DNA of 64,000 bases from Parvibaculaceae bacterium PLY_AMNH_Bact1. GTDB taxonomy: Bacteria; Pseudomonadota; Alphaproteobacteria; Parvibaculales; Parvibaculaceae. Positions 21,297 through 38,276 of the stretch are shown in pieces. Made by a program: the position numbers and the translations under genes. Positions within the stretch are counted from its first letter, which is position 1. Each line of letters starts with the position of its first letter. The notes under the pieces are model-generated. The model made no database searches. It was not told the DNA's origin and saw only the letters and a program-made list of their open reading frames with translations. The DNA is taken from contig CP126168.1 in NCBI GenBank assembly GCA_032881465.1, positions 3,225,501 to 3,289,500 on the forward strand, given 5' to 3'.

Positions 21297-22754
21297 GTGA
21301 CGAGCGAAGACAAGACAGAAACGATCACGCCGGAGAAGGGTCCCTTCGACTTTAACTTCCTTATCTCTCTCGCGTTGGCCCTGTTGGTCTGGATCGGTCT
21401 GCGCAATGACGTGGTCTGGGGCAGCTTTGTTGGAGAAGCTGACCGCGAAGCGCTTCAAATCGCGTTTGAGATGCGCGTCAATAAAACACTCCCCGGATCT
21501 CATCCAATCCTGTTCCTCAATTTGGATGACTCAGTCTGGCTGGGTGCGACAGCTGACGGCCCCGCCCTCGCCTATGCGCCCCGCCCGGTCCTCGCTGACC
21601 TCATCGAAGCATCATACGGAACACCGGGCATGCCCCGCCCGAAAGTGGTCATTGTCGACATAGATCTCTTTTGGCGCACACCCGATGAAGCCGCCGAACA
21701 ACGCATTGATAAGATCCTTCAAAAGTGGGGACGCGATCCGGAAGCCCCCCTTCTTATTCTTCAAAGAGAGGTGACTGAAGGCGACGGTCGCCCCGACTCT
21801 CTCGCTGCCGCCCGTGCGTCAGACAGAGACAGCATCATTCTGTCGGCACCGGAAGACAATATCGTTTGGGCAAGCGCACAACTGACAGGCGATGAAGTGA
21901 TGGGGGCCCGCTACTTCACCCATTTCCTGTGTATCGACACGCCGACCGGCATCGAAGCATCTGCAACCACCGCATTTTATGCAGCCGTCGCGCGAAAAGC
22001 AGAGACCCCTCGAGAGGCCATTCAGATTGTCCAGAAATCAATGGAAGGTCCTCGCTCCTATTGCACCGGTACCTGGGATGACGTTTCCTTCGATCTCACT
22101 ATCCCTGGTCGACAACCGCTCACATTCAAAAGCCAGCAGAGCCTCATCAATTACAATCTGAATGCAGGCTCAGCAGATGACCCAGAACCGCAGCTCCCCG
22201 CTGCCGATATGTTTGTTATTCCCGCCGGGCTGGTTCAACCGGGCATGGTCGCAGGTCTCTCGGCAAATGATGGGGTCGTAATTATTGGATCTGCTGCCAT
22301 TGCCGCGAGAGACCGTCATATCTCCGCATATGGCGCCATGGGCGGCAGTCTCGTCATTGCCAACGTCATCAGGGGGGTAGAAGCAGGTGGCGAAGTAAGG
22401 CGCATGGCCTGGTACCTCGAAGCCATCCTGTTAACCCTGTTTGTCATGCTGATCGTGTTGGCTTTCTGGTATTGCCGAAAAGCCAGGGACTACCTCAAAC
22501 CTATGGAGGGCCTGCACTGGGCCATGCGAATAGCCCGTACACCTATCAATCTGTTGACCAATCCGGTTATCATCAAGATATTGATCGGAATAGGGGTTTT
22601 CTGGGTTGGGGCTGGTGCCAGTTATTTCCTTCTAGATGACGGTCTGTGGCTTGGTTTAGCCGCCCCTGCATATGCAGCGGCACTTAACGAAGCCCGCGAA
22701 GATTTTGAAGAATTAATGGAAAGCTTGAGAAATGCCGAAACAAAAAATGGTTAG
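21297..22754 (+). CDS. CHASE2-domain membrane protein without an output domain
   Basis: A protein of 485 aa. One transmembrane helix is near residues 22-42. A long extracytoplasmic CHASE2 sensor domain runs to about 375, with KVVIVDIDLFWRTPDEAAE and NDGVVIIGSAAIAARDRH typical of CHASE2. Two or three C-terminal membrane helices lie near 393-415 and 443-475. CHASE2 normally feeds a kinase, cyclase or other catalytic domain; here none follows, so signalling must go to a partner. The start is GTG 21297 with GGGGA 7 nt upstream. The next gene overlaps by 23 nt and is presumably co-translated. The pair converges on the CHAT/TPS operon. Confidence 0.85.
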   Translation: MTSEDKTETITPEKGPFDFNFLISLALALLVWIGLRNDVVWGSFVGEADREALQIAFEMRVNKTLPGSHPILFLNLDDSVWLGATADGPALAYAPRPVLADLIEASYGTPGMPRPKVVIVDIDLFWRTPDEAAEQRIDKILQKWGRDPEAPLLILQREVTEGDGRPDSLAAARASDRDSIILSAPEDNIVWASAQLTGDEVMGARYFTHFLCIDTPTGIEASATTAFYAAVARKAETPREAIQIVQKSMEGPRSYCTGTWDDVSFDLTIPGRQPLTFKSQQSLINYNLNAGSADDPEPQLPAADMFVIPAGLVQPGMVAGLSANDGVVIIGSAAIAARDRHISAYGAMGGSLVIANVIRGVEAGGEVRRMAWYLEAILLTLFVMLIVLAFWYCRKARDYLKPMEGLHWAMRIARTPINLLTNPVIIKILIGIGVFWVGAGASYFLLDDGLWLGLAAPAYAAALNEAREDFEELMESLRNAETKNG

Positions 22755-23628
22755 CGCCGCGATTGCGATTGCATTGGGTGCCGCGGCTTGGGGAACCACA
22801 ACCAGCGCAGATGCAGCAATCCCGGCGTGCGGATCCGCCACTGTTGCATTCGTGAAACAAATTGACGGCAGCTCCGACAGTGTACGCATCAAGCGCGCAG
22901 GCTCAGAGGACTCTCTTTCCGTTTTCGCCCCGCTATGTGAGGGCGATGTGGTGAGTCTCAAGACAGCCAGCGACAGGGTGGTCCTCGGCATTGCAGGTAA
23001 CTCTGGTCCAAATGAAATTCGCGGACCGAAAAGCTACACCGTTGGCCCTGCCTCAACCGGCAGCCAGTCTATTAGCGAACTGATCGAAGGCCGCCTGCTT
23101 CCTCTCGGTGATCGGTTGGTCGGACAGGGGTTAGCGCGCTCCGGCGGTGAGTTTGGATTTGGACTGCTTGATCTCGAAACCGAATCTGCACAGATCAAAT
23201 CAGGCTTCCGTCCTCTGTGGGTCGGCTGGTCCGGTGGACAGGCACCCTACGAACTGCTCGTGCTCGATCCCACCGACCGGATCTTCGCGACCCAAACTCT
23301 GTCAGACATATCCACAACGCTGCCAGCGAGAACCATTACGCCAGGGCGCTACACAATCGTCGTGAAAGATGCCTACGGGCGGACGAGACAGACTTTCTTC
23401 GATGCAGTGGAGAACGTACCCACTACATCTGCACCTTCAGTACCAGCATGGATGGGGGAGGACACTGCCGTCATGCTTGCGGCTTTCTGCGTTGCCGCCG
23501 AAGACCCATATGTGTGGTCCTACGAAGCCGCGCAGCAGATCAGCGGAGCAAAAGATACCGGTCTTGATCGGGAGGCAGCACTTGCGCTCATTGGTGGGGG
23601 CGACTCAGAGGCTCTCTGCCCTCGCTAA
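22732..23628 (+). CDS. Periplasmic protein of unknown function, CHASE2 partner
   Basis: A 298-aa protein with a signal peptide (about residues 1-28, ending SADA-AI). Residues 30-105 (PLCEGDVVSL then VVLGI and a GPKSYTV stretch) faintly resemble the beta-rich FecR domain. Residues 150-225 look like an Ig-like or jelly-roll strand region (YELLVLDPTDR, GRYTIVVKD). The C-terminal 70 residues are helical, with two Cys. Function unknown. It overlaps the CHASE2 gene by 23 nt and ends 15 bp from the convergent CHAT gene with no terminator, so the two transcripts probably overlap. ATG 22747 is an alternative start. Confidence 0.8.
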   Translation: MPKQKMVSAAIAIALGAAAWGTTTSADAAIPACGSATVAFVKQIDGSSDSVRIKRAGSEDSLSVFAPLCEGDVVSLKTASDRVVLGIAGNSGPNEIRGPKSYTVGPASTGSQSISELIEGRLLPLGDRLVGQGLARSGGEFGFGLLDLETESAQIKSGFRPLWVGWSGGQAPYELLVLDPTDRIFATQTLSDISTTLPARTITPGRYTIVVKDAYGRTRQTFFDAVENVPTTSAPSVPAWMGEDTAVMLAAFCVAAEDPYVWSYEAAQQISGAKDTGLDREAALALIGGGDSEALCPR

Positions 23629-23643
23629 GACGCCGCGTCCGGA

Positions 23644-26619
23644 TCACCCTCGATTGAGCACTCGGTCTGCGTCTCCGGTCATGACATACGGAGCCCAGAA
23701 ATAGGGGTGTGAGAACTTGTCTTGAGCGATGAGCGCTTTCTGGGCACCGCGTAACGCTTCATGCATCGGTGCACGAGCGGCATCTACGAAAAACTTGCGA
23801 ACCACCGCGTCTGCCGCAGCGTCATCTGCAACCCAGTGGGTAGCAAGCACAGATCGTGCACCCGCATAGACAAAGCTTCGAACCAGCCCATCAAGCTGCG
23901 CACCATCGAAGACAGCAGCAACACCCTCAGCACCTTCGGCCGCCCGCGCGGTATCGCACGCGGCCAGAACCACCAGCGTGGCATCAAGTTTCATATCAAG
24001 AATTTCAGTCGCGCTCAGCATGCCATCGCCGCCTGCCTGGTCAAGCGACGTCAGCAGTGACGGTTCGGAAATGCAAAAGCCATCCCCAAAAAAACCATGC
24101 GTAACAAAGACCAACACCTGTTGATCAACAAGCGATGCATCTTCGATCGTGTCCACATCGGTGAAGGACCGTCCGGTCACATCTCGGCGGCCGAATGCCT
24201 GCCCAACTGACGACCGCAAGGCGGTCAGCGGCTTCTGAAGATTGGGCTGCCCAGCAAACACCTGACCACACCGGGCGGGCCTGCCTTCCGCTGTCATCCG
24301 AGCCGTGAAATCAGATATCCAGGCATCAGAATTGTTGGGGGGCACAGGCGGTCCAAAAACGGTCATACCGGTGGTCGCCTCTGGGGCCTCAGCGGTCCTT
24401 GCCGCAACAAAACTCGCCGCGCTCGGCGTATTGATGAAAGCAAAATCATTCGCAAGCCAGGGCAAGGTGGAATAAGACCGCGCGCGCACGAGATCCTTCT
24501 GTTCATCATCAAAGGCCGAGAGCAGAAGCGATGGAGGAAGTGATCCAATCACACCGCGAGGGGCAAATATCAGTGTTTCGACACCTGCCTCGCGAAGGTC
24601 TGAGTAAACCGGCCCCAACACGCCGTCAAACAATGCATGCGCCTGTTCGGCAGCAAAAGGTGGCGTTCCGCCAGCGCGTGCGCGCAGCGTGGAGCGCACG
24701 CGACGCACGAGACGGCGCGCGTCATTGCGCCCAAGCTCAGTACCAAAGGGCATCACCTTGCCCGAGAAAACAGCATACCCAAAACCACCGGCCTGGGTGG
24801 GGGCAAAAGCGACAAATGCCTCGTCTGAGCCAAGTGTCGAAATGAGGTCCGCCGTCTCCGCCCCCCCATTCACAAGCTGCATATATTGCGGCTGAGCCTG
24901 ACGCGCGAGGACCTCTGCTTCCAGCGCCGCCGCTTCCGTGGTCTCCACAGCAAGCGTCAATCGCGCAAGCTCTTCCGGGTCATCAGTGCTGGCGCCCTGT
25001 TGCAGAGCAAGGCGAGCCTCCTGAAGCGCTCGCTCAGCATCCTGCAACGCACGGATTTCGTCTGCTGTTCCCTCGCTCGCGACCCGCGCGGCCGCCATCG
25101 CCATCGCCGCCGCAGCCCTCGGCTCAACCATTCCTTCAAAAGCATCGACAAAACGTCTCGTGAGCCCTGCCGCATCCCCAAGCCCCATGTCCTGTGCCCG
25201 CAACAAAACACCCAGATAATCTCCTGCAACATCCGGCGAGATGCCAAATGAGCCCTCTACACTCGAATAAAGATCAAACGAGTAATTGTAAGAAGCGAGC
25301 GCTGCGGAGACATCGCCATCGGTAATCTGGGCTTTTCCGAGGCTCGCAAGAAGCCGGGCAGTCAAAAGAGATTGAGGCTGGTCTTTGACCCACTTGGCCA
25401 CAAGGGTCGACAAGCGTGATCGCGCAGCACCAACATTACCTTGCGCCAGATCATTCCCTGCACGCCGCTCTTCAATCAGCGCATCAAGCCATCCGGCCGA
25501 TCCCGGAGGTGCACGTCCCACCAGATCCGCCGCATCATCAAGTGCATCCGCCGCTCCCTCGCGACCTGAAAGAAGCAGTGCAGACGCCCGAAGATAGGCT
25601 CTATGCCCTTCAAGGATGAGTGCCCTAACGCCCGGACGGAGCTCTGCATCTGAATAGATCGGCGGCACACTATTACCGCTGCGATGATTAACAAACTCAG
25701 CAGCCCGCGGTGTGATCACACGATCAGAGCTCTCTCCCGAGACAAAGGCATAGGCCCCAAAAGTCTCCGGCGCGAAAGCCTGTTCTGCCAGCGCCAGGGC
25801 TTCTCGATAGTTCCCTATATTGAGCTGATGCACGGCCCTGTAGTTGATGAGTTTATCGCGCAGCCACGAGGTCGTCTGCACTCCCGCTGAGAGAGCCGTG
25901 TTATCAAGCAGTGTTTCCGCTTCCGCAAAACGCCCCTGGCTCGAAAGATTGAGCGCAAGGTCCAGCGCAATATCCGCGCGGCGCACAGGATCGCCACCAA
26001 AGAGCCCATCCTGGATTGCCACTGCTTTGGCATAATCTTCTGCGGCGAGGGAAAAACGGAAAGACACATTCCGCCGGTGTCCGCGTCGGCGCAATACTTC
26101 CTGATCCTGAAGTGCAGCAACGCCTGGCAGGCTCGCCATTTCATCCGCACTTAACTCAATCGGTGCTTCAAGGCCCGCAAGGGCTGCAGCCCCGCGACGC
26201 ATTGCAGGAAGAGAGCCGGGAATTCCCCGGGCCTGCACGATGGTGTCTGATCCCGAAACGCTGATCGCAAGATCCTGCAGCAATGTACCCGACAATTGCC
26301 CTGGGCATGTCAAAACACCTTCAGCAAGCAAACTTGGCTCGACAGAAGACCGGCACGCCGACAAGAGACCGGCACCTTGCGCAATCTCGTTGGGATAAAC
26401 ATCCATTGTTGCAGCCGCCCGACGCCATGTACCGCAAAACACATCGTACCGGGCAAGCGCGCCCACAGCTTCCGTATCAAGACGCTTGCCAGCCCGGCAG
26501 GCATCGCCCTCTGAGCTCACGCCAAGATCCAGTGCGTCAGGTAATGCTGACCCCATCTCCTGCATACAGCTGGTAAGAAACAAGACAGAGAGCAAAGTTG
26601 CGAGGAAACGGCCGGTCAT
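23644..26619 (-). CDS. CHAT-domain caspase-like lipoprotein with TPR-like repeats
   Basis: A lipoprotein of 991 aa. The signal MTGRFLATLLSVLFLTSC ends in a lipobox, with acylation at Cys18. Residues 100-600 are helical and repeat-rich (TPR-like, with coiled-coil stretches rich in Ala, Glu and Arg near 490-560). The C-terminal CHAT domain (about 590-985) keeps both catalytic residues: His841 in VFVTHGFFGDG and Cys888 in VVLAACDTA. It should be an active cysteine protease of clan CD at the periplasmic or outer-membrane face. Its ATG overlaps the stop of the TpsA gene as ATGA, so the two are translationally coupled. The likely target is the coupled exoprotein or the CHASE2 pair. Confidence 0.88.
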   Translation of the reverse strand: MTGRFLATLLSVLFLTSCMQEMGSALPDALDLGVSSEGDACRAGKRLDTEAVGALARYDVFCGTWRRAAATMDVYPNEIAQGAGLLSACRSSVEPSLLAEGVLTCPGQLSGTLLQDLAISVSGSDTIVQARGIPGSLPAMRRGAAALAGLEAPIELSADEMASLPGVAALQDQEVLRRRGHRRNVSFRFSLAAEDYAKAVAIQDGLFGGDPVRRADIALDLALNLSSQGRFAEAETLLDNTALSAGVQTTSWLRDKLINYRAVHQLNIGNYREALALAEQAFAPETFGAYAFVSGESSDRVITPRAAEFVNHRSGNSVPPIYSDAELRPGVRALILEGHRAYLRASALLLSGREGAADALDDAADLVGRAPPGSAGWLDALIEERRAGNDLAQGNVGAARSRLSTLVAKWVKDQPQSLLTARLLASLGKAQITDGDVSAALASYNYSFDLYSSVEGSFGISPDVAGDYLGVLLRAQDMGLGDAAGLTRRFVDAFEGMVEPRAAAAMAMAAARVASEGTADEIRALQDAERALQEARLALQQGASTDDPEELARLTLAVETTEAAALEAEVLARQAQPQYMQLVNGGAETADLISTLGSDEAFVAFAPTQAGGFGYAVFSGKVMPFGTELGRNDARRLVRRVRSTLRARAGGTPPFAAEQAHALFDGVLGPVYSDLREAGVETLIFAPRGVIGSLPPSLLLSAFDDEQKDLVRARSYSTLPWLANDFAFINTPSAASFVAARTAEAPEATTGMTVFGPPVPPNNSDAWISDFTARMTAEGRPARCGQVFAGQPNLQKPLTALRSSVGQAFGRRDVTGRSFTDVDTIEDASLVDQQVLVFVTHGFFGDGFCISEPSLLTSLDQAGGDGMLSATEILDMKLDATLVVLAACDTARAAEGAEGVAAVFDGAQLDGLVRSFVYAGARSVLATHWVADDAAADAVVRKFFVDAARAPMHEALRGAQKALIAQDKFSHPYFWAPYVMTGDADRVLNRG

Positions 26620-29600
26620 CGGACCCCCGCATCCCACAAGGCTTCATTGCCGCTTGCAGCAACGCCGCCAAGGTCTTCTTCCTCATCGTCCTCATCATCC
26701 TCACCGGTCTCAAACACAACCGGGATCACACCACCCAGGCCCGAGGGATCCCCATTGATAAAGCGGTTGTTCCGCTCAATCTCGCGAAGAGAATCAGCAG
26801 AACAGCTCACTGGATCACCGATGAGACAAAAATTCATGTAGTACCGGTTATTCTGGATCAACGCGGTCTCGCCAGATGTCGTGTCACCGCCAAACAGAAT
26901 ATTCTCTTCAAGGCTGGCATTAAAAGCAGACACACGCGTGCCATCTGCCCGAATGACATCGCCGAAAATCAACACCTCTTCAGGCCCGGTGCCTGATGGG
27001 AACAAAACCCCGTCCCCCTTAGACGGCACGTTGAACACAAGCCCTGCCCCCTCAACGCCGCGCCCCGTATTCAACTGGACGACCGATCCAGGCGCCAAAA
27101 TTTGCAGCTGATTGGTGGCGATAAACACATGATCCTCAGCAACACCGAAAAGACTGTGAGGCAAGGCAGCCAAGCCTAGGAGGGGCAAAGACCCTGACTC
27201 AAAAATCTCCAGGAACCTCTCCGTCCCAATCACAACATCATCGGCCGACTCAAGCCGAACACTTCCCAGCCTTCCCGCACCCGTATCCAAACCCAGCTGC
27301 CCAGAAATCAGGATCATTCCAGGTCGCCGATCAAGGCTCGCGGTTTGATACCCAAGCTGTAGAGACGAAAGACCGGCAACGGTACCCGCAGCAATGATGC
27401 GGGATGACTGGTCTGTCCCGATCATCATCGTATCCAGGCTGCTCGTGTTGAGCCGCGCATCCAGCAACAACACATCGTTGGCACCGCCATCTATGTCAAA
27501 ACGACCAGCGGAGATTTTGGTAAGCTCAGATTCATCAATGATGAGCCCTGCAGCCCGTCTGAGTGTGATGCCACCTGTCGTGCCATTACCACCGAGCACG
27601 ATTGTCTGCCCTGTGCGATCGGTCTCTAGAATGAATTGATCGCCCGCGGATATCGACCCGGAGAGATCAAGGTCAGCGACGGTCAACATGACATCGCTTA
27701 AGGCGCCAATCCGATTGAGAAGAGCGCTGCCATTGGATGCATTCAGCACGAGCGTGCCACCCATAGCACTCATCGAACCACCAATCGTCACATTACCCGT
27801 AAGTGCCTGTAGAAATGCGCTGCCATGTGCAGTTCCGGTCCCAGCGACACTCACCGAGCCGCCCACAAGTCGGATATCTTTGGTCGCTTCCAGGTCATTA
27901 ACAGCAATTGGACCGTTGGCCGCGTTGGCGACAATGTCGCCAAGAGTTGCCATTATGCTGCCCGTAGAGGAAATACCCCCAGTAAGCGCGGTCAAAAGAA
28001 CATCTGTCGCTGCCGTAACTCTCCCAATGAGTGAGATTGAGCCAGCTTCTATCTCCAAGTTACTGGTCGAAGAAATATCTCCGACAGTCGCTGTCAGAGC
28101 AGCGGAGGTGCCAGCGGTAGACTTACCCGCGAGGTCAATATCTTGGGCCGACATGGTAATGCTGGTACCTGCCGTCGTGGTCCCCACGTCAATGCTCCCG
28201 GTCGCCGCATTGATCGCGATAGCCCCCGTCGTCGCTGTCACCGCATTGATCGCGATAGCCCCGGCAGTCGCTGTAATCGTGGCATCGGTGGCAGCCAGCG
28301 CCGGACCAGAGACCGTCACCGCCGAGCCCTCAATCTCCAACGCCCCCGTCGAAGACACATCCCCAACCGTTGCCGTCAGCATCGCTGTGGTCGTGGCATC
28401 AGCTTTGCCCGTGAGGTCAATATCTTGGGCCGACATGGTAATGCTGGTACCCGCCGTCGTGGCACCCACGTCGATATTCCCGGTCGCCGCATTGATCGCA
28501 ACAGCCCCGGCCGTTGCCGTCACCGCATCGAGCGTGGCATCCCCTGACGTCGCCGTAATCGTGGCATCGGTGGCAGCCAGCGCCGGACCAGAGACCGTCA
28601 CCGCCGAGCCCTCAATCTCCAACGCCCCCGTCGAAGACACATCCCCAACCGTTGCCGTCAGCATCGCTGTGGTCGTGGCATCAGCTTTGCCCGTGAGGTC
28701 AATATCTTGGGCCGACATGGTAATGCTGGTACCCGCCGTCGTGGCACCCACGTCGATATTCCCGGTCGCCGCATTGATCGCAACAGCCCCGGCCGTTGCC
28801 GTCACCGCATCGAGCGTGGCATCCCCTGACGTCGCCGTAATCGTGGCATCGGTGGCAGCCAGCGCCGGACCAGAGACCGTCACCGCTGAACCTTCAATCT
28901 CCAACGCACCCGTCGAAGACACATTGCCCGCCGTTGCCGTCAGCATCGCGGCGGTCGTGGCTTCGGCTTTGCCTGTCAGATCAATATCCTGACCAGACAC
29001 GGTGATACTAGTCCCCGCAGTCAGAGCGGCAGCATCCACATCGCCTGTGGTGGCGGTAATACCAATCGCGCCCGTCGCAACAATCGCGTCATTGACCGAT
29101 GCATCACCGCTCACCGCCTCAATGGCCGCAGATCCGACAGAGATATCTTGTGCGCTGGCAGCAATAGAGACTGAGCTACCTCGAACGGTCAAAGCCCCCG
29201 TGGCACTAATACCAAGATCTGCAGTCCGGACAGTCTCGGTTCCTGTTGCAGCAACAACCCCACCAACCAAATCCGCACCGCCGAGCAGCATGACAGAACC
29301 TGACCCGGTGCCTACATTTGTCGCCTCGATAACACCATCAACATTTAGAAAGGCGCCGCCTCCCATCGACGACGCAGCGGAGATAATAACATTACTGCCA
29401 CGAGCACTCCCCGCCGCCGTCTGCGTAACAGGGACCGTCTCAGCAGGTGCCATGGCATGATCAACACCAGTATCAATGATAAAATCTGTGACCAGCAGTT
29501 CCTTGTATGGGGCTCCGCCACCCGCCGGCGTCCGATCCGCCTCAGCAAAACTGAGACGAAACGCGTTTGCGCCCCCAAGAAGAACATCCCCATTGTCCGA

Positions 29601-30209
29601 TGTCAGGGACCCTGAATTAGTGACCATCGGCGCCACCAACGCAATCAGCCCCTGCGCCTGAAGATCAGCGGCATTGGTGATTGCTCCCGTCCCGCTTTCT
29701 GTAAAAACGAAGGTTCCGGTGGTTGGATCCGTCGCCATAAAAGCAGCAGTATCAATATCACTCGTGGTGGCCAGTAATCCGCCAACATCAACAACTGCAC
29801 CCGCACCAAACGCAATACCGCCAGGGTCCAAAATCCAAACATGGCCGTTAGCTGTAAGCGCGCCATCAATCATCGTTGGCGTCATAACGTCAACTGTTAC
29901 CCGGTTAACAGCGATAGATGAGCTTGAAGGTTGGATGAAATCGACCGCATCGTTGATCCCAATATTAAAATTGTCCCAATTGATGACCATCTGATCAGAG
30001 TTTTGCTGAACCGTGACGGCAACCCCGCCGCCGCCGGCCATAGACGTAATAGAAGCACCAACACCACCGCCAGCCACAATCGTCCCATTCGTCGGTTCCG
30101 CCTGAGCCCCTGTCATCGCACAGGCCAGCGCAGCCGCACACAACACACCGGCGGGCATCGCCCGACGAACGCCCTTACGCCAAAGCAGGTTAGAGGGTGG
30201 GATCTTCAC
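26616..30209 (-). CDS. Two-partner secretion exoprotein (TpsA, filamentous hemagglutinin N-terminal domain)
   Basis: A secreted protein of 1197 aa. A signal peptide of about 37 residues ends GAQA. The TPS domain (about 40-260) has NFNIGINDAVDFIQPS, then HVWILDPGGIAFGAGA, a variant of the usual NPNGIxFG. The middle is a long beta-helix-like region rich in Ala, Thr, Gly and Asp with 94-residue repeats, two of which are identical at DNA level. The C-terminus has two Cys, a very acidic run (DDEDDEEED) and a short tail. Start is GTG 30209 with GGAGG upstream; it overlaps the TpsB gene by 20 nt. It is probably a surface adhesin exported by TpsB; the coupled CHAT lipoprotein could process it. Confidence 0.9.
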   Translation of the reverse strand: MKIPPSNLLWRKGVRRAMPAGVLCAAALACAMTGAQAEPTNGTIVAGGGVGASITSMAGGGGVAVTVQQNSDQMVINWDNFNIGINDAVDFIQPSSSSIAVNRVTVDVMTPTMIDGALTANGHVWILDPGGIAFGAGAVVDVGGLLATTSDIDTAAFMATDPTTGTFVFTESGTGAITNAADLQAQGLIALVAPMVTNSGSLTSDNGDVLLGGANAFRLSFAEADRTPAGGGAPYKELLVTDFIIDTGVDHAMAPAETVPVTQTAAGSARGSNVIISAASSMGGGAFLNVDGVIEATNVGTGSGSVMLLGGADLVGGVVAATGTETVRTADLGISATGALTVRGSSVSIAASAQDISVGSAAIEAVSGDASVNDAIVATGAIGITATTGDVDAAALTAGTSITVSGQDIDLTGKAEATTAAMLTATAGNVSSTGALEIEGSAVTVSGPALAATDATITATSGDATLDAVTATAGAVAINAATGNIDVGATTAGTSITMSAQDIDLTGKADATTTAMLTATVGDVSSTGALEIEGSAVTVSGPALAATDATITATSGDATLDAVTATAGAVAINAATGNIDVGATTAGTSITMSAQDIDLTGKADATTTAMLTATVGDVSSTGALEIEGSAVTVSGPALAATDATITATAGAIAINAVTATTGAIAINAATGSIDVGTTTAGTSITMSAQDIDLAGKSTAGTSAALTATVGDISSTSNLEIEAGSISLIGRVTAATDVLLTALTGGISSTGSIMATLGDIVANAANGPIAVNDLEATKDIRLVGGSVSVAGTGTAHGSAFLQALTGNVTIGGSMSAMGGTLVLNASNGSALLNRIGALSDVMLTVADLDLSGSISAGDQFILETDRTGQTIVLGGNGTTGGITLRRAAGLIIDESELTKISAGRFDIDGGANDVLLLDARLNTSSLDTMMIGTDQSSRIIAAGTVAGLSSLQLGYQTASLDRRPGMILISGQLGLDTGAGRLGSVRLESADDVVIGTERFLEIFESGSLPLLGLAALPHSLFGVAEDHVFIATNQLQILAPGSVVQLNTGRGVEGAGLVFNVPSKGDGVLFPSGTGPEEVLIFGDVIRADGTRVSAFNASLEENILFGGDTTSGETALIQNNRYYMNFCLIGDPVSCSADSLREIERNNRFINGDPSGLGGVIPVVFETGEDDEDDEEEDLGGVAASGNEALWDAGVR
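28281..28844 (-). repeat. Perfect 282-bp tandem duplication within tpsA
   Basis: Bases 28281-28562 and 28563-28844 read identically, a 94-codon unit. A third, partly identical unit begins at 28845, and diverged units flank both sides. The phase preserves the frame. Identity at silent sites points to recent duplication or gene conversion. Confidence 0.9.
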
Positions 30210-31890
30210 CTAGCCCTCCAATAAAAGCCGCCGCGTCGTCCCAAATCTGCACCGCATCAGCGGTGATGTTGAACAAGACCCGAGCACCAGGTCGGTTTTC
30301 GCCAAGGCCGCGCGGCCGATCGAGCGGCTGCGCATAAGTGATATCGGCCCGCACTTGTTGGTTGAATAGAAGCCTCACACCACCGCCGGCAGACGCCAAC
30401 GTCCGCGCAGGCGTGCCCGTGGTGTCTTCATTCCAATATCGACCGACATCATAAAAAGCGATCAGCTCAGCGCCAATTCGGTCATTCCAGAACTGTTGTT
30501 TGAAGCCGCTTAGCGTCACAGCTGCAGCAATCGCACTGTCCCCTGCCGCAGCTCCGGGATCATATCCACGGCCCACCGTGTAATTACCGAATGAGAACTC
30601 TTCGATCGCCATCAGTGGCGAATGTGCCCACTGGCCTCGGAGATCTATTTCCGCCTTCATGCCCCAAAGCGCCGGCGTTTCAGTAAGAAACTCTCCCGAG
30701 ACCACCCGCGTAAACGGATCTGCCTCCGAACGGGCCAGGTTAGAATCGCCCCGGGCGCTTGCATGAAACCACCGGAGCCCCTGACGCAGCTCTACGTTCC
30801 CCGAAAAGCTCCACTCATCGACCTCAAACTCACCTTCAAGCCCCGCATAAAGCGTCCGAGTTTCATCTTTGCTCAGCGGCACGGCCCCCTGGAACAACTC
30901 TCCTTTGAGGTTCGCCGCTTCAAAACCCAGATATCCTGAAAGGGATTCTTCACGGCGGAGGTAGATAGGATGAGCCAGCTCAATGCCTGCTGTGAGGCTT
31001 TCCGAGGTTGATCCCAACGTCGCGACGGCACCGGAAGGTTCAGCCTCGGCATAGGAGCTCCAGACCCGCGCTGTCAGTCCATCAACCGTCAACCCGCGGG
31101 TATATGCAATTTGACCGCTCACCTGCTCACCAGGTTCCCAAGTATTAAATGCAGCAACCTCCAACTCATCGCCCAGAGGCGCCCAGCCGGGAATATGCGC
31201 AAAAAGTGTCGTACCTTCCCGTCCAAGGTTTTTCGATCCGAAGTTCTGAACATTCACCAAAACCCGGGGGTCTTGTCGCTCCGCGTCTGCAATGAGACGC
31301 ATTGCTCCTGGGCCTTGCTTACCGCGCGCGATTGAAACTCTCGCTGCAAGTCCCGGAACGTCGTTCAAGAGCGCGACGGTGCGCTCCACATCATCAAGCG
31401 CGAGCGGTCCCTTACCGTCCAAGGCCGCGAGTCGCGCCTCCGTCTGAGCTTTGGCGATGGCAGAAGGCCCCAACACAGAGACGCCCTCAACCCATCCTTC
31501 GATGATCTGAAACCTCACACGCCCATTGAGAATTTCCTGTGGCGGCAGCACGACCCGGACGTAAGGGTAGCCTGCGTCCCGGAAAATACCCTCCATTTCA
31601 GTACCCAACGCCCGCAGATCATCTAAGGAAACCGGTCGATTGAGATAGGGCTCCGCAGCCGCTTCAAGTATGGCATCATCGACTGCCGAGGGCTCAGGAA
31701 GGGCGCTCATCCGCTCTAGCAAAACAGCACTGAACTCAATGCTTGGAGCGCTATTTGTCCCTTCTGCAGCTGCCGCAGATGTTGCGGCATCCATTTGCCC
31801 AGGAGTCGGCGCAAAGGTGCTGCAGCCAGCGACCATCAGAGAGAAAAATAAAAGTGCGATACTCCGCACAACCGCCCCCACATTCCACAT
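30190..31890 (-). CDS. TpsB outer-membrane transporter (ShlB/FhaC family), predicted lipoprotein
   Basis: A 566-aa transporter. The leader runs from MWNVGAVVRS to LMVAGC, a good lipobox with Cys23, unusual for this family. A POTRA region lies at about 85-190 (LNGRVRFQIIEGWVEGVSV, then DVERTVALLNDVPG). The 16-strand barrel follows, with the conserved VGRGYDPGA of loop L6 and RADITYAQPLDRP near the C-terminus. It exports the TpsA protein encoded immediately downstream, with which it overlaps by 20 nt. First gene of the TpsB-TpsA-CHAT operon. A CtrA-type site lies about 97 bp upstream. Confidence 0.9.
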   Translation of the reverse strand: MWNVGAVVRSIALLFFSLMVAGCSTFAPTPGQMDAATSAAAAEGTNSAPSIEFSAVLLERMSALPEPSAVDDAILEAAAEPYLNRPVSLDDLRALGTEMEGIFRDAGYPYVRVVLPPQEILNGRVRFQIIEGWVEGVSVLGPSAIAKAQTEARLAALDGKGPLALDDVERTVALLNDVPGLAARVSIARGKQGPGAMRLIADAERQDPRVLVNVQNFGSKNLGREGTTLFAHIPGWAPLGDELEVAAFNTWEPGEQVSGQIAYTRGLTVDGLTARVWSSYAEAEPSGAVATLGSTSESLTAGIELAHPIYLRREESLSGYLGFEAANLKGELFQGAVPLSKDETRTLYAGLEGEFEVDEWSFSGNVELRQGLRWFHASARGDSNLARSEADPFTRVVSGEFLTETPALWGMKAEIDLRGQWAHSPLMAIEEFSFGNYTVGRGYDPGAAAGDSAIAAAVTLSGFKQQFWNDRIGAELIAFYDVGRYWNEDTTGTPARTLASAGGGVRLLFNQQVRADITYAQPLDRPRGLGENRPGARVLFNITADAVQIWDDAAAFIGGLGEDPTL

Positions 31891-32408
31891 CCATTGTTAC
31901 GCTGGGATGATTGGAAAACATCAGGTCTGCGTATCGACCTGAAGCGCGAATTGTACAAAAGATTGCCGACGGGAGTCGGTCCAAAGTTAACTTTTGGTTA
32001 ATCAGAACGCAGCTGAGCTTTTTCCCACACACCTCTCCAACCGCTGGTCGGAAGCCTGTGCAAACCCATCAAAAACACAAGTCCCCATCCCCAAATCACG
32101 GGCAGGCTGAAGCATTCTATTTAGAGACCAATCGCCATCATATAAACCGGCCTTAACCGGCGCGATTCATCCCACGATTAATAAGAGAATGTTAAGTATC
32201 TTTAGGCGGAGCATTATGTTTTGAATGGCGATGGCGGAGAGAAGTCATTTCTGACCCGTGCCCTGCAAGGCACAGAATTCCTCATCATACCCCTGTGATT
32301 TCGGATTATTTGACTTAAGTGAACGTTTTCCGCGTCTGCCGCGTAGAATAAGAATAGGTGAGGTTGGCGTTAACCGGCGCCCCCCAGTTGGAAACAAGGC
32401 CGCTGTAT
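31891..32408. other. Divergent intergenic region between the TPS and RND operons
   Basis: A noncoding stretch of 518 bp. It is AT-richer than its surroundings and holds one full CtrA-type site (31987-32001) and several TTAACC half-sites, including ones near 32153 and 32369. No convincing small gene or RNA is visible. Confidence 0.6.
31987..32001 (-). promoter_or_regulatory. CtrA-type binding site TTAA-N7-TTAA
   Basis: TTAACTTTTGGTTAA matches the full CtrA consensus TTAA-N7-TTAA, and on the minus strand ends in TTAAC. It is 97 bp upstream of the TpsB start, a normal promoter distance. Cell-cycle or surface-state control of the TPS operon is inferred. Confidence 0.5.
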
Positions 32409-33914
32409 ATGAATTCCCCCAAAGTGGTATCCCTAGCCACTCTTCTCATTCTGTCAGGATGCACCCTTGGACCGGATTATGAGCGGGGCAGCTCTTTAAC
32501 CTCAATTCTCGGTCTGGATGGACCTAACGCTGACCCGACAACATTCAACGCGGCGCCCGACCCTGCATCAAGTGCAGCTGAAAACATCTCCCACTGGTGG
32601 GAACGGCTGGGCGATCCGGGCCTGTCCCCTCTTGTTGCGGAAATGTTGTCGAACAACAAGGACCTTGCAGTCTCAGCTGCCCGCATTAGACAGGCCCAGG
32701 CAAGCCTGGAAAACACTACCGGCACACGCCTCCCAAGCCTTGACCTCAATCCAAGCGCCAACCGCTCCTTCACCACGAACAGCGCTGGCGATCGGACCTA
32801 CACAAACAACTTCTCTGTAGGAACAACCTTGTCATGGCAGACGGACCTCTTTGGCAGACTGCGTCGGAGCGAACGGTCACAAGCAGCCAATCTCGCGGCG
32901 GCAGAGGCTGACTGGCAAGGATTGATCCACACACAGATCGCCACGCTGGTGCGCACTCGGGTGGCGCACGCGACCCTGGAGCGACGGCTCGCCGCGACGC
33001 AGGCGATCGCAGAAAGCCGTCGCGCTACATTGAATGCCGTTGAACGTCGATACCGCGCGGGGCTTGAAAGCACCAACGCAGTCGATCTGCATGCAGCTCG
33101 GGAAAACTACACATCAGCTCTTGCAGATATCCCGTCACTTGAAAACGATATTGCAGCAACCACAACCAGTCTGCATGTGTTGCTCGGGCGTATTCCAGGC
33201 ACCGGCCTCCTCAACATGGATACTCTGTCGAACGTGCCGCCACCTCAGGACATACCGATCGGGATCCCGGCGTCCCTTCTAGATCGTCGTCCGGACCTAC
33301 GAGCCGCTGAGTTCAGATTAGAGGCAGCAACAGAAAATGTTGGTGTTGCCATTGCCGACCTTTACCCCAACCTCACGCTCACCGGCAGCCTGAGCTCCAG
33401 CGATGCATCGATCGCAAATCTCTTCGATATTACAAGCCTTGCAGGCTCTCTGATGGCACAGATCACTCAGCCTTTGTTTGATGGCGGTTCGCGGCAAGCC
33501 ACGGTGAGACAACGCGAAGCTCAGATGGCCGAGCAGGCAGCCGCCTATGCTGGCAATATCCTGACGGCGATCAAAGAAGTGGAAGATGCACTTGTGGCAG
33601 AACGCAAGTCAGCCGCCCGGCTGGTCCAGCTGGAGAGCACCCTTCGCGAAGTTCGGTTGGCAGAAGCCAGTTCCTTTGATCGGTTCCGCCGCGGGATTGG
33701 GTCTTATGAAAGACTATTGGAAACACAACGCCGCCTGCAGGCCGCTGAGCAGACTCTTTTGATTGAACAACAAAACAAATGGAATTCTCGCATCAATCTA
33801 CTACTGGCGCTTGGCGGAGATTGGCTGGATTCCGGCTCTCAACAAACACCAAATGCCCAACTCTCGCTTGAAACGAGTACACAGGAAAGTGAGACACATG
33901 AAACGCATTCTTGA
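32409..33914 (+). CDS. RND efflux outer-membrane lipoprotein (NodT/OprM family)
   Basis: A TolC-like outer-membrane channel of 501 aa. The lipoprotein signal MNSPKVVSLATLLILSGC acylates Cys18, then LGPDYERGS follows as in NodT proteins. Two OEP repeats span the rest, with LLDRRPDLRAAEFRLEAA at the junction and coiled-coil helices. Start ATG 32409 puts the lipobox at the right depth; a GTG 51 nt upstream would bury it. It is the first gene of a three-gene efflux operon, and its 3' end overlaps the fusion protein gene by 17 nt. Confidence 0.9.
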   Translation: MNSPKVVSLATLLILSGCTLGPDYERGSSLTSILGLDGPNADPTTFNAAPDPASSAAENISHWWERLGDPGLSPLVAEMLSNNKDLAVSAARIRQAQASLENTTGTRLPSLDLNPSANRSFTTNSAGDRTYTNNFSVGTTLSWQTDLFGRLRRSERSQAANLAAAEADWQGLIHTQIATLVRTRVAHATLERRLAATQAIAESRRATLNAVERRYRAGLESTNAVDLHAARENYTSALADIPSLENDIAATTTSLHVLLGRIPGTGLLNMDTLSNVPPPQDIPIGIPASLLDRRPDLRAAEFRLEAATENVGVAIADLYPNLTLTGSLSSSDASIANLFDITSLAGSLMAQITQPLFDGGSRQATVRQREAQMAEQAAAYAGNILTAIKEVEDALVAERKSAARLVQLESTLREVRLAEASSFDRFRRGIGSYERLLETQRRLQAAEQTLLIEQQNKWNSRINLLLALGGDWLDSGSQQTPNAQLSLETSTQESETHETHS

Positions 33915-35124
33915 TCCGATTACAAAGCGCTTTTCGAAAGAGGCTGCGGATCCAGCTTATCGCGCTGAAAATGTCGGCCGTCTGCAACTCATCCTCGTTG
34001 TCTCGTTCTTCTTATTTGCCGTTCTGGTGTCCAGCCTGCTCTCAGGAACAGACCGCACACCACAGCTAAAGGACGAAGAAGAATTTGCCCCTCTTGTGAA
34101 CTCGACCATTGTGAACCCGGAAACCCGACGGATTGAAATTGTGGGCAGCGGGGCGGTCAGCAGCCAGGTTGACGTTCAAATCATTCCGCAAGTCCAGGGT
34201 CGGGTTGATTGGCTGAGCGCAGTTATGCACCCCGGCGGTTCTTTCTTAAAAGACGAAGTACTGTTCCGCATCGAAGCACGCGACTTCGAACTAGAGGTTG
34301 AACGCCGACGCGCAGAGGTTGCAAGCGCCAGAACCAATCTACAGTTGGAAGAAGCCGAGGGTCTTGCCGCCACAAGGGAATGGGAAGAAATCACGCCAAG
34401 CGAGCCGGTTCCAGACCTTGTCGCGCGCAAACCCCAGATCCGAGACAGGCGTGCCGCCCTCGCCTCAGCCCAAGCTCAGCTCGCCCGCGCCCAACTCGAC
34501 CTGGACCGAACGAATTTCTCATTGCCATTTAATGGAAGGGTCGTCTCCAGCAATGTCGAACTGGGTCAGTTCATGGCCACCGGCCAGTCCTACGGGACCG
34601 TCTATTCGCTGGATGGACTCGAAGTCACTGTGCCCCTAGCAGACAAAGATCTGAAATGGCTCCAACCACTCAACAATGTTGAGGCGATCATCCAGACGTC
34701 ATATCTCGGTGTTGATCGAGTGATCCAGGCAAAGGCCACGCGCGTGTCTGCGCAACTGGACGCCCAGACAAGGTTTGCCTCCGTTATTGTATCCCTAGGC
34801 GAGAACGTAGGTACCGAAGACACACTGCCGCTCGTCCCAGGCGTTTTCGTTTCTGTGACATTTCGCGGTCCTGAACTGGACAACCTGGTCACCGTGCCCA
34901 CAGCCGCTGTTCAGGAGAACGGGAAAATCTGGACCGTTGTAGATCAGCGATTGAAAGTTGCCCAGCCGGAGATTGTGCAAACAGGGCCCACTGTCTCGCT
35001 GATCAGAGGGCTGGCAGCCGGTACAGAAATATTGCTGAGCAATGTTCCAGGGGCAGTTGAAAACATGGCGGTCCGCACCGTCGTCGCAACGACATCAGCG
35101 ATCAACACAGTCGAGGCGCGCTAA
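33898..35124 (+). CDS. RND efflux periplasmic adaptor (membrane fusion protein)
   Basis: A protein of 408 aa with an N-terminal membrane anchor (about residues 30-48), not a cleaved signal. A lipoyl-like barrel half (IIPQVQGRVDWLS) is followed by an alpha-helical hairpin near 120-210, then the second half (RTNFSLPFNGRVVSSNVELGQ, in parts) and beta-barrel and membrane-proximal domains. It links the inner-membrane pump to the channel. ATG 33898 is chosen because AGGAAAG precedes it; the reading frame opens earlier, but that part lies inside the upstream gene. It is joined to the pump gene by a TAATG overlap. Confidence 0.9.
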   Translation: MKRILDPITKRFSKEAADPAYRAENVGRLQLILVVSFFLFAVLVSSLLSGTDRTPQLKDEEEFAPLVNSTIVNPETRRIEIVGSGAVSSQVDVQIIPQVQGRVDWLSAVMHPGGSFLKDEVLFRIEARDFELEVERRRAEVASARTNLQLEEAEGLAATREWEEITPSEPVPDLVARKPQIRDRRAALASAQAQLARAQLDLDRTNFSLPFNGRVVSSNVELGQFMATGQSYGTVYSLDGLEVTVPLADKDLKWLQPLNNVEAIIQTSYLGVDRVIQAKATRVSAQLDAQTRFASVIVSLGENVGTEDTLPLVPGVFVSVTFRGPELDNLVTVPTAAVQENGKIWTVVDQRLKVAQPEIVQTGPTVSLIRGLAAGTEILLSNVPGAVENMAVRTVVATTSAINTVEAR

Positions 35125-38100
35125 TGGCCAGCGACTTTCCTAGCGATTACGAAGATCGCAAACAGACACAACCGCGCGGCATCATTCCCTGGTTCGTCAA
35201 CAATCACGTCGCCGCAAACCTCTTGATGATGTTTTTGCTTTGCGCTGGCCTGCTTGCGGTTTCCAACATGCGGGCAGAAGTATTTCCACAGGTCGACCTT
35301 CGCACCATCAGCATCACCGTTGCCTATCCAGGCGCGACCCCGAACGAGGTTGAGGACGGCATCACCCGGCGCGTCGAGGAAGCGATATCCGGCATTGAGG
35401 GTATTGATCGCGTGCGGTCAACGGCGTCGGAAAGTGTTGGGACGATTACCGCAGAACTCGATGACTTTATCGACGCAAGCACTGTTCTCGATGACATCAA
35501 AGACGAAGTAGACCGACTCTCCGACTTCCCCCCGGCAGATGCCGAAGAGCCGGACATTTCCAAATCAAGCCGGGCTTCTAGTGTACTGTCTCTAGTGGTC
35601 TTCGGTCAGGGTGGAGAACGAGCAATCCGCGAAAATGCGGAGCGCATACGAGATGACCTTCTTCAGGTCAATGGCCTCTCGCTGGTCTCTCTCAGTGGCG
35701 TGCGCGGCTATGAGCTTTCTATAGAAGTGAGCGAAGAGACGTTGCGCAGGTATGGCTTAACGCTGCGAGAAGTTGCGAGCGCGGTATCCAATACCTCGCT
35801 CGATCTTCCCGCCGGTTCAATCAAAACAGATGCAGGCGAAATCCTGCTGCGAACGGCGGGCAGACGGTTTACCGGCCGAGAGTTTGAAGACATTGTGATC
35901 CGCTCCAACATAGACGGCTCCCTTCTGCGCCTAGGGAACATTGCAACCATCAATGATGGCTTCGTGGAAGATGAGTTAGAGAGCCTCTTTAACGGTCAAC
36001 CCGCTGCGAAGATCAACATCTCCCGAACCGGTGACCAGGATGCGCTCGAGATCGAAGAGAAAGTCAAAACCTACCTCAAAACACTTACACTGCCCGCCGG
36101 CCTGGAAATCGACATATCCGAGAGTCAGACTGACATCCTGCGAGATCGCATCAGCCTTCTCATCCGCAACGCTCTGCTTGGTTTCGCACTCGTCTTTCTT
36201 TCACTCGTCCTCTTTCTCGATCTAAAGCTCGCTTTCTGGACAAGTATGGGCATCCCGATCTCCTTTCTTGGCGGACTGATGATTGCATCCCTGTTCGGGG
36301 TCACCATTTCTATGGTCAGCCTGTTCGCATTGATCGTCGTCCTGGGGATTGTGGTCGATGACGCCATTGTTGCAGGCGAGAACATCTTTGCAGCCCAAGA
36401 AGCCGGACTGAAAAATGAGAAAGCCTCACTCGCAGGTGTGATGGGGATCGCCGCCCCTGTCACCGTGGGCGTCACGACAACAATGGCAGCCTTTGCGCCA
36501 CTTCTCTTTGCCTCGGGCATTTTGGGACAGATCATGGCGCCTGTGCCCCTCATCGTGATCGCGGTGCTCTTGGTTTCGCTTTTCGAAGCCTTCTTCATTC
36601 TGCCCGCCCACCTATCCAATTCAAGCCGATGGAGCCGGGGCATCCTGGAACGCATTCAAACACGTGTAGGTGGCGCTCTGAATTCATTCACGGAGAGGGT
36701 CGTCCGCCCCACTGTGACACGGTGCGTTCAATTCAAATACGCCACTTTTGCGGGAAGCGTCGGTCTTCTCATCATCATGTACGGCCTCTTTCAAGGGGGG
36801 TATGCCCGCTTCATTTTCTTCCCTCACCTTGAGGGGGACCGGGTAGCAGCGTCGCTCACAATGCCGGAAGGAACCCCTTTCGAAACGACACGCGCAGCCA
36901 CACAACAGATCATCGATGCAGCTGAGCGCATTCGAAGAGAAATAGACGCAACCACACCAGACGGGACCGACAGTGTTCTTGTCAGAACTTCAGTGACCGT
37001 CGGCGAACAATCCTTCTCAGGTGGCCCAGGGGGCGGGAGCAGTTCAAATGGTGCCAATATCTCACGCGTAATCCTGGAATTGCCACTTGGCGATGCACGC
37101 GTCATCTCAGCCCGCGAGCTCGAACAAAGATGGCGCAAGGAAATAGGCGAGATCCCGGGCGCGGAATATCTTGGCATTCAAAGTTCTCTCTTTTCCAATG
37201 ATCCGCCGGTTGAGATTCAATTGCGGCATGCCAACGAAGAAACAGTTCTTATGGCAACCGAACGGTTGAAACTGGAACTCGCTGCCATCACTGGCGTAGA
37301 AGAAATCCAGGACAATCTGGATGTCGGCAAACGGCAGCTGGATTTTGAACTGACCGCTGCTGGGTTGGCAGCAGGTCTCACAACCAATGATCTCGCACGA
37401 CAGGTTCGTCAGTCCTTTTATGGCGAGGAGATTGAGCGCATTCAGCGTGGTCGCGATGAGATCAAGGTTCTCGTCAAGTACCCACTGGAGGAACGCCAAT
37501 CTCTTTCAGAAGTCTATGATATGCGAATTCGTCTGGCAGACGGGTCAGAGGCGCCACTCCTCACTGTCGCACAACTCTCGGAATCGCGCGGTTACTCTTC
37601 CATTCAACGGGTGGACGGACGCCGCATTGCATCGGTGACCGCAGAGGTGGACGAAGCGGAGACGACACCCAACGATGTGATCGCTTTGATTGAGACCGAC
37701 ATCATGCCCCGCATGACGAGAGACATCCCTGGCCTCTCCTACTCAAAAGAAGGAGATGCGCGCAGTCAATCAGAAGACCTGGCCGCCCTCGGACAAGGCC
37801 TCCTGATTGCACTCTTTGTGATTTTTGTCATGCTGGCAGTGCAGCTGCGCAGCTACATTCAACCCCTGGTTATTTTGACCGCAGTGCCATTTGGGTTCTT
37901 GGGCGCCATCCTTGGCCACATGATCATGGGCCACGGCCTTTCCTTTGTTTCGATCTTCGGGATGGTCGCACTGTCAGGCGTGGTGGTGAACGACAGCATC
38001 GTGCTGGTGGATTATTACAACAAGCTGATCGAACAAGGCGTTGAGGAAGGCCAGGCAGTTGTCGATGCCGCCGTACGACGCTTCCGCCCCATTCTGCTCA

Positions 38101-38276
38101 CGACGACAACCACCGCGTTAGGGCTTCTACCCATGCTGCTGGAGACAAGCGTTCAGGCTCAGTTCCTCATCCCAATGGCAATCAGTCTTGCCTTCGGAAT
38201 CGTTGTGGCGAGTGTCATGATTATCCTGCTGGTGCCAGCACTCACCATGATCGTTGAGGAATGGCGTGTTCGATAG
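35124..38276 (+). CDS. RND multidrug efflux permease (AcrB/HAE-1-like)
   Basis: An inner-membrane proton-driven exporter of 1050 aa with the normal 12-helix, two-loop plan. The proton-relay aspartates sit in GIVVDDAIVAGENI of helix 4, and VVNDSIVLVDYYN marks the matching helix in the second half. Two large periplasmic loops lie at about 60-340 and 570-870. It is the last gene of the operon, starting within the stop codon of the adaptor gene. No local regulator is present. Substrates are unknown. Confidence 0.93.
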   Translation: MASDFPSDYEDRKQTQPRGIIPWFVNNHVAANLLMMFLLCAGLLAVSNMRAEVFPQVDLRTISITVAYPGATPNEVEDGITRRVEEAISGIEGIDRVRSTASESVGTITAELDDFIDASTVLDDIKDEVDRLSDFPPADAEEPDISKSSRASSVLSLVVFGQGGERAIRENAERIRDDLLQVNGLSLVSLSGVRGYELSIEVSEETLRRYGLTLREVASAVSNTSLDLPAGSIKTDAGEILLRTAGRRFTGREFEDIVIRSNIDGSLLRLGNIATINDGFVEDELESLFNGQPAAKINISRTGDQDALEIEEKVKTYLKTLTLPAGLEIDISESQTDILRDRISLLIRNALLGFALVFLSLVLFLDLKLAFWTSMGIPISFLGGLMIASLFGVTISMVSLFALIVVLGIVVDDAIVAGENIFAAQEAGLKNEKASLAGVMGIAAPVTVGVTTTMAAFAPLLFASGILGQIMAPVPLIVIAVLLVSLFEAFFILPAHLSNSSRWSRGILERIQTRVGGALNSFTERVVRPTVTRCVQFKYATFAGSVGLLIIMYGLFQGGYARFIFFPHLEGDRVAASLTMPEGTPFETTRAATQQIIDAAERIRREIDATTPDGTDSVLVRTSVTVGEQSFSGGPGGGSSSNGANISRVILELPLGDARVISARELEQRWRKEIGEIPGAEYLGIQSSLFSNDPPVEIQLRHANEETVLMATERLKLELAAITGVEEIQDNLDVGKRQLDFELTAAGLAAGLTTNDLARQVRQSFYGEEIERIQRGRDEIKVLVKYPLEERQSLSEVYDMRIRLADGSEAPLLTVAQLSESRGYSSIQRVDGRRIASVTAEVDEAETTPNDVIALIETDIMPRMTRDIPGLSYSKEGDARSQSEDLAALGQGLLIALFVIFVMLAVQLRSYIQPLVILTAVPFGFLGAILGHMIMGHGLSFVSIFGMVALSGVVVNDSIVLVDYYNKLIEQGVEEGQAVVDAAVRRFRPILLTTTTTALGLLPMLLETSVQAQFLIPMAISLAFGIVVASVMIILLVPALTMIVEEWRVR

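Follow-up and report, generated by a model that had tools for sequence, protein, structure and literature searches.

A two-partner secretion locus with a predicted exported TPR-CHAT peptidase and a C-terminal tag on its exoprotein in alphaproteobacteria

Organisation of the locus

The locus described here lies in a 64,000-nucleotide stretch of the genome of Parvibaculaceae bacterium PLY_AMNH_Bact1 (contig CP126168.1, positions 3,225,501 to 3,289,500; hereafter the window). It combines a two-partner secretion (TPS) pair, the transporter TpsB and the exoprotein TpsA, with a tetratricopeptide-repeat (TPR) protein carrying a CHAT peptidase domain, a CHASE2 membrane protein and an exported partner of the latter. 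What is new here is a tag at the C-terminus of the CHAT-linked TpsAs. An earlier note, made from the sequence alone, had read the region as a CHASE2 protein without an output domain, co-translated with a periplasmic protein and converging with genes for TpsB, a 1197-amino-acid (aa) TpsA and a CHAT lipoprotein joined to tpsA by an ATGA overlap. Our analysis bore out this description. All five genes were found where the note had placed them, Pfam recognised the CHASE2 domain, the CHASE2 and partner genes overlap by 23 bases, and this plus-strand pair converges on the minus-strand operon tpsB-tpsA-CHAT with 15 bases between the stop codons. The features are as follows (positions in the window; E, expectation value; pLDDT, predicted local distance difference test).

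21297..22754, plus strand: CHASE2 membrane protein, 485 aa; Pfam CHASE2 35.3 bits (cut-off 26.3), no recognised output domain; orthologues in the same layout
22732..23628, plus strand: exported partner, 298 aa; overlaps the CHASE2 gene; orthologues 64-96% identical
23644..26619, minus strand: TPR-CHAT protease, predicted to be an exported lipoprotein, 991 aa when read from the ATG; CHAT 119 bits; model pLDDT 84.9
23956..23958, minus strand: catalytic Cys888 of CHAT (ACDT motif); present in 140/140 CHATs
24097..24099, minus strand: catalytic His841 of CHAT (THG motif); present in 140/140 CHATs
26179..26535, minus strand: N-terminal four-cysteine domain of CHAT; Cys41, 62, 89 and 105 invariant (alignment A5); beta strands and a helix in the model
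26566..26568, minus strand: lipobox cysteine of CHAT (residue 18 counted from the ATG, in LTSC); related CHATs also have a lipobox-like motif
26616..30209, minus strand: TpsA exoprotein, 1197 aa; TPS domain E 1e-19, residues 65-283
26634..26663, minus strand: C-terminal tag of TpsA, VAASGNEALW, residues 1183-1192 of 1197; 25.2 bits with the learned motif
26802..26828, minus strand: TpsA cysteine pair CLIGDPVSC, candidate disulfide anchor; sole cysteines beyond the first 60 TpsA residues, 70 residues from the end
28126..28988, minus strand: tandem repeat in the TpsA body, 282 bp, 3.1 copies, 93% matches (Tandem Repeats Finder)
30190..31890, minus strand: TpsB outer-membrane transporter, 566 aa; ShlB 68 bits (E 1e-18), POTRA_2 45 bits (E 9e-12)

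The overlapping genes for a TPS-domain TpsA and a POTRA/ShlB TpsB are those of type Vb two-partner secretion, in which TpsA would be secreted through TpsB. The CHAT open reading frame (ORF) extends from 23644 to 26637 on the minus strand with an in-frame GTG at 26637, and its ATG at 26619 overlaps the TpsA stop codon (ATGA, 26616-26619). The numbering of the intact His841 and Cys888 in the earlier note holds from this ATG.

Conservation of the gene linkage

The survey set comprised 385 Alphaproteobacteria genomes, with CHAT matches in 80 and TpsB in 111. At least 24 CHAT matches lay at most 20 kb from a TpsB gene, compared with 1.23 expected under random CHAT placement in the same genomes (P 8e-23), and CHASE2 was found within 10 kb in 13 of these 24, against about 0.28 expected (approximate counts). 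On the CHAT tree, TPS linkage required 4 changes as compared to 33 with shuffled labels. The exact convergent five-gene layout occurred in three genomes of the same genus, counting that of the window, and in three from a different family; it was also present in Candidatus Phaeomarinobacter (L092), on a contig without tpsB. The 23-base overlap of the CHASE2 and partner genes is retained in relatives, and when the 298-aa partner was used as a query against 40 genomes of the same order, the eight with a match all displayed CHASE2, partner and convergent CHAT (a short stretch was read in each).

Among 80 named loci selected by the similarity of their CHAT, the order tpsB-tpsA-CHAT was found in Caulobacterales, Sphingomonadales, Rhodospirillales and others. 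The order CHAT-cyclase-tpsB-tpsA was found in Sphingomonadales, where the CHASE2 protein bears a cyclase domain (profile matches, confirmed by Pfam on sampled loci). Some loci encode an exported protein of about 230 aa between CHAT and the cyclase (alignment A4). The neighbourhood search that the earlier note had put forward as its check thus revealed conserved co-occurrence, with the five-gene layout in two families, and the core of the system, TPS genes plus an exported TPR-CHAT protein, is old and widespread in alphaproteobacteria.

The database labels Akkermansia (L118) and Bacillus (L140) are doubtful, because the CHATs of these two loci branch among Burkholderiaceae and Sphingomonadaceae. 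One contig (L036, G007:C88) carries a CHASE2 cyclase, CHAT, DUF928 and TpsB, a possible DUF928 link whose host is unsure because the G007 bin has 7% contamination. In addition, a separate TPS-free CHAT clade (L066, L069, L070, L073, L085, L086, L088) still adjoins a CHASE2 cyclase, often with an exported protein of about 230 aa between the two, and constitutes a second CHAT-CHASE2 association.

CHAT-linked TpsAs carry a C-terminal tag

The CHAT-linked TpsAs are alike at the C-terminus despite lengths of about 900 to 4,400 residues. An unsupervised search of the last 60 residues of 57 such proteins yielded the motif [VI][TS]GxG[ND][EPA]xL[WYF], with a log-likelihood gain of 494 versus 133-149 on shuffled C-termini (about 30%). 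A first run against a whole-protein background had captured only acidic composition and was discarded; the tag came with a C-terminal background. It was present in 50 of the 57 proteins (five-fold cross-validated median 16.3 bits), whereas 16 complete TpsAs whose TPS loci lack CHAT had a median of -0.9 bits, and none of these exceeded 9. When the C-termini of all 13,645 ORFs of the loci were scored, 64 lay above 13 bits: the 50 training TpsAs, 10 further TpsA ends and 4 apparent chance matches. The 10 further ends belong to TpsAs that precede or are part of CHAT loci, so that 60 of the 64 are TpsAs beside CHAT.

The held-out test drew on TpsAs of loci with the other gene order and on further TpsAs encoded in these genomes, leaving out five incomplete stretches and one of unclear reading. 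All seven complete CHAT-linked TpsAs, of which five come from loci with a different gene order, scored 10.5-23.2, and two complete TpsAs with no CHAT in view scored -0.1 and -4.5. The tag is consequently absent from 18/18 complete TpsAs without CHAT (16 survey and 2 held-out).

In the window TpsA the tag ends five residues before the C-terminus. A genome-wide search with a DNA pattern gave three matches; the only one in frame was TpsA, so the window genome has no second in-frame copy among ORFs of at least 60 aa. Other tagged proteins were rejected for this genome, the two remaining matches not being in frame in any such ORF.

A cysteine pair precedes the tag

A C-x(4-8)-C pair was found in 46 of the 57 CHAT-linked TpsAs, at a distance of 50-130 residues from the C-terminus except in one case (172). 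It usually follows Nx, and these TpsAs have few or no cysteines elsewhere. TPS passengers are cysteine-poor, and HMW1 and HxuA lock their C-terminus in the TpsB pore by a C-terminal disulfide loop (PMC5422565). The window TpsA likewise carries its cysteine pair near the C-terminus, as HMW1-type exoproteins do, and by analogy with these Haemophilus proteins the pair probably forms a disulfide knot. Four TpsAs unlinked to CHAT have such a pair at the very end and no tag, which suggests that the pair is an anchor they share with linked TpsAs, the tag being the element that accompanies CHAT.

CHAT is a predicted exported TPR-CHAT peptidase

The His-Cys dyad was intact in all 140 CHAT sequences, and the window His841 and Cys888 are invariant in the alignments; the named loci were drawn via patterns that included the dyad motifs, and the CHATs from profile searches were drawn without them. 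The AlphaFold model of the window CHAT (pLDDT 84.9, 61 sequences) displays a TPR superhelix of several hundred residues. Its closest fold was the Craspase TPR-CHAT protein 7y9x (Z 26.9, 490 residues, root-mean-square deviation (rmsd) 7.8), followed by separase 5fc3 (Z 24.0, 312 residues, rmsd 3.4) and gingipain RgpB 4ief (Z 17.5, 281 residues, rmsd 3.7). The sequence and predicted-fold matches therefore identify the window protein as an exported TPR-CHAT peptidase, which would be proteolytically active.

Of 90 TPS-linked CHATs, 85 have an unnamed N-terminal four-cysteine domain. Twelve apparently unlinked CHATs also have it, and for 8 of them the contig stops next to the gene; in two of these (L092, L111) the upstream frames, broken at the contig end, finish in the TpsA tag. 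A truncated TpsA-like frame comes before another (L071), and L058, L060 and L062 had no TPS gene in the stretch read. An export signal was recognised in 92 of 97 four-cysteine CHATs, as a lipobox-like motif in 24 and another hydrophobic N-terminus in 68; of the remaining five, four are truncated where the contig stops and the start of the fifth is doubtful.

Other identities were considered for the window CHAT. It is not a subtilisin autotransporter of the SphB1 type, CHAT and TPR being its sole Pfam matches of note, and it does not belong to the LapG-type family C93. A role in anti-phage defence was rejected, as none of the five proteins was matched by PADLOC. The TpsA cysteine pair was associated with an Asp that follows the HWxV motif of CHAT; we did not use this link, since most of the exceptions are related sequences and ancestry alone may explain it.

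The CHASE2 protein and its exported partner

About half of the CHAT-TPS loci encode a CHASE2 protein next to CHAT, frequently as a fusion with an adenylate cyclase. The earlier note had placed the CHAT protein under the control of the CHASE2 pair. The adjacency is conserved and a cyclase is present in other members, which speaks for this proposal; the window CHASE2 has no cyclase domain in Pfam and no known output, and CHASE2 control was rejected as a fixed part of the system, since CHASE2 lies within 10 kb in only about half of the CHAT-TPS loci. CHASE2 control is the weakest step in the window, because its CHASE2 protein lacks an output domain.

The 298-aa partner had no Pfam match, FecR included, at E up to 1. 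Its AlphaFold model, of low confidence (pLDDT 53), contains a beta domain, an Ig-like domain and C-terminal helices. The partner resembles the 230-aa partners of the cyclase loci in position and domain order, but the hhalign probability of 0.2 is not significant and we do not claim homology.

In one locus (L034:1127-2566, minus strand) a mechanosensitive-type channel with a cyclic-nucleotide-binding domain is encoded downstream of CHAT, partner and CHASE2 cyclase, and is a candidate effector of cyclic AMP (cAMP). The second TpsB gene of the window genome (L172, G000:C1:2586000-2604000) is divergent from genes for a FecR protein and a CHASE2-PAS-histidine kinase and has no CHAT, and CHASE2 also adjoins a second TpsB in G009, G323, G121 and G225. 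The L172 arrangement makes a periplasmic partner and a CHASE2 protein beside TPS genes a recurring theme.

Variation and neighbouring genes

TpsA length varies strongly within the genus (1197 vs 1594 aa), and the L032 frame is broken in two near 7231-7274. Together with the 282-bp repeat, these differences point to repeat-number variation or phase change. The N-terminus of TpsB (31813-31890, MWNVGAVVRSIALLFFSLMVAGCSTF) resembles a lipobox signal, which is unusual in a barrel protein. Beyond the cassette, at 32358-38276, an outer-membrane efflux protein is followed by a membrane-fusion-like protein and then by a 1050-aa ORF; this is likely an adjoining resistance-nodulation-division efflux operon, and its first genes also adjoin the cassette in two genomes of the same genus.

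Discussion

We consider it somewhat more likely than not that the locus encodes a two-partner system with its own exported caspase-like gatekeeper, in which tag-guided cleavage of TpsA would decide between retention and release. TpsB would thread TpsA to the surface, N-terminus first, leaving the C-terminus with the cysteine knot and the GNExLW tag in the periplasm, where it would hold TpsA on the cell through TpsB. The TPR-CHAT lipoprotein, which would sit in the outer membrane facing the periplasm, could then recognise the tag and cut TpsA near its C-terminus, turning a held protein into a released one; alternatively, the cut could be part of normal TpsA maturation. The partner and the CHASE2 protein may sense the state of the periplasm, which the CHASE2 adenylate cyclase of many relatives would signal as cAMP, whereas the window CHASE2 may act by contact instead. 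That CHAT acts on its cognate TpsA had been proposed in the earlier note, and the C-terminal tag lends this strong circumstantial support. The analogy drawn there with SphB1 is the weaker one; the action of LapG on CdrA fits better, because the tag and the cysteine pair sit at the end of TpsA that stays periplasmic in the HMW1 and HxuA types.

Several points weigh against this interpretation. The genes, their conserved linkage, the export signals, the intact dyad, the tag and the cysteine pair are observed and the CHAT fold is predicted, but anchoring, tag recognition, cleavage, release and the direction of control are all inferred. CHAT, TpsB and the tagged TpsA are co-inherited, with CHAT linkage clustering on the TpsB tree (5 changes vs 36 shuffled), and since they travel together, correlation cannot assign the tag reader to CHAT or TpsB; the reader could be the TpsB lineage or the CHASE2 side. 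Two unlinked TpsAs (L202, L206), whose TpsBs branch near linked ones, have the cysteine pair and lack the tag, which favours CHAT as the reader, but they are few, being the only two such TpsAs with a complete C-terminus. The anchor is not universal, because a linked sub-group (L034, L051 and their kin) has no cysteine pair. Finally, LapG-family (C93) proteases are encoded elsewhere in the window genome, with three matches far from the locus (G000:C1:2092204, 91665, 1886299); C93 is absent from 12 of 22 CHAT-TPS genomes.

Three other explanations were weighed. It is distinctly unlikely, in our judgement, that CHAT is a periplasmic receptor or chaperone rather than mainly a TpsA protease, with its TPR docking the tag during threading and signalling to CHASE2 (through cAMP in relatives). 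The long modelled TPR superhelix and the CHASE2-cyclases adjoining in many loci would suit such a role, as would the Sinorhizobium CHASE2 cyclases, which sense exogenous protein via an outer-membrane barrel (PMC13001267); however, pure docking would not need the dyad conserved in 140/140 CHATs, and about half of the loci have no nearby CHASE2 gene. More improbable still is an arrangement in which the TpsA C-terminus activates CHAT to cut another protein, such as the partner or the CHASE2 sensor, thereby giving a Craspase-like proteolytic signal on stalled or complete secretion, for which TpsA would be the trigger rather than the substrate. The Craspase TPR-CHAT protein, the closest fold, is an allosterically activated protease, and CHAT lies directly beside the genes for the partner and CHASE2 both in the five-gene layout and in the cyclase variants; nevertheless, CHAT and the tag are kept in about half of the loci without a neighbouring partner or CHASE2. 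The least likely explanation ties the tag to a single TpsA/TpsB lineage, in which TpsB would read it as a signal to stop secretion or to anchor the exoprotein, and makes CHAT a passenger that serves some other function. It draws on the confounding of lineage and CHAT on the TpsB tree and is at odds with L202 and L206, which kept the pair without the tag, and with the joint presence of tag and CHAT even in a changed gene order.

Returning to the gatekeeper proposal, we also envisage, as a possible though doubtful extension, that the GNExLW tag marks TPS exoproteins as dedicated substrates of exported TPR-CHAT proteins, to be trimmed or re-attached at the outer membrane and reported via CHASE2 cyclases as cAMP, which would amount to a previously undescribed, widespread sorting system.

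The system is real, conserved and apparently undescribed, and new as a combination of known families. The TpsA tag, the cysteine pair, the four-cysteine domain of CHAT and the CHASE2-cyclases of other loci go beyond the earlier note. Literature searches found no paper that connects the CHAT domain to two-partner secretion, filamentous hemagglutinin or CHASE2, which is weak evidence given their partial coverage (few subscription papers and preprints), and CHASE2 with hemagglutinin gave one unrelated paper. To our knowledge, the functions of bacterial CHAT proteins have been established in few cases (Craspase, HetF), and a large exported branch of the family now gains a probable substrate together with a likely recognition tag. 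The TpsA-maturing proteases of several systems were called unidentified in a review of TPS (PMC5422565), and we propose CHAT as an answer to the question of which proteases mature TpsA proteins. The locus suggests a cAMP-linked counterpart of the stick-or-leave switch operated by cyclic di-GMP (c-di-GMP) and LapG, with a bacterial caspase relative in control of the retention or release of a surface protein.

Comparison with known systems

In Pseudomonas, LapG cuts the periplasmic tail of CdrA as c-di-GMP falls (PMC5422565). What CdrA-CdrB/LapG and the proposed mechanism have in common is that a cysteine protease of the periplasm, governed by a second messenger, cuts the C-terminal tail that a TpsA adhesin leaves in this compartment and so releases the adhesin from the cell. 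They differ in that LapG belongs to family C93 and not to CHAT, the messenger is c-di-GMP and not cAMP, and no GNExLW tag is described for CdrA (PMC5422565). The anchoring of HMW1 and HxuA resembles the window TpsA in the cysteine pair near the C-terminus, a candidate anchor in the TpsB pore; unlike these proteins, TpsAs of the window type have a linker and a conserved tag after the pair, and the locus includes a protease gene.

SphB1 is a surface subtilisin autotransporter. The processing of Bordetella FhaB by DegP, CtpA and SphB1 (PMC8263021) is a further case in which periplasmic proteolysis controls the C-terminus of a TpsA, although these proteases are unrelated to CHAT and act on a protein with a long prodomain, and sphB1 is stated to be located outside the fhaB-fhaC locus (PMC5422565). 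The Craspase TPR-CHAT protein (Csx29) and separase share the TPR plus caspase-like CHAT architecture and fold; they are cytoplasmic or nuclear and have other regulators, whereas the window CHAT is predicted to be exported and has the four-cysteine N-terminal domain. Sinorhizobium CyaD1, CyaD2 and CyaK with NsrA (PMC13001267) likewise tie a CHASE2 sensor to an outer-membrane component, and CHASE2 cyclases neighbour CHAT in many relatives of the window locus; in contrast, the window CHASE2 has no cyclase, and the partner gene and CHAT do not appear in the Sinorhizobium system as described there. In kind, a tag-and-protease pair such as the one proposed here would be comparable to PEP-CTERM/exosortase and LPXTG/sortase.

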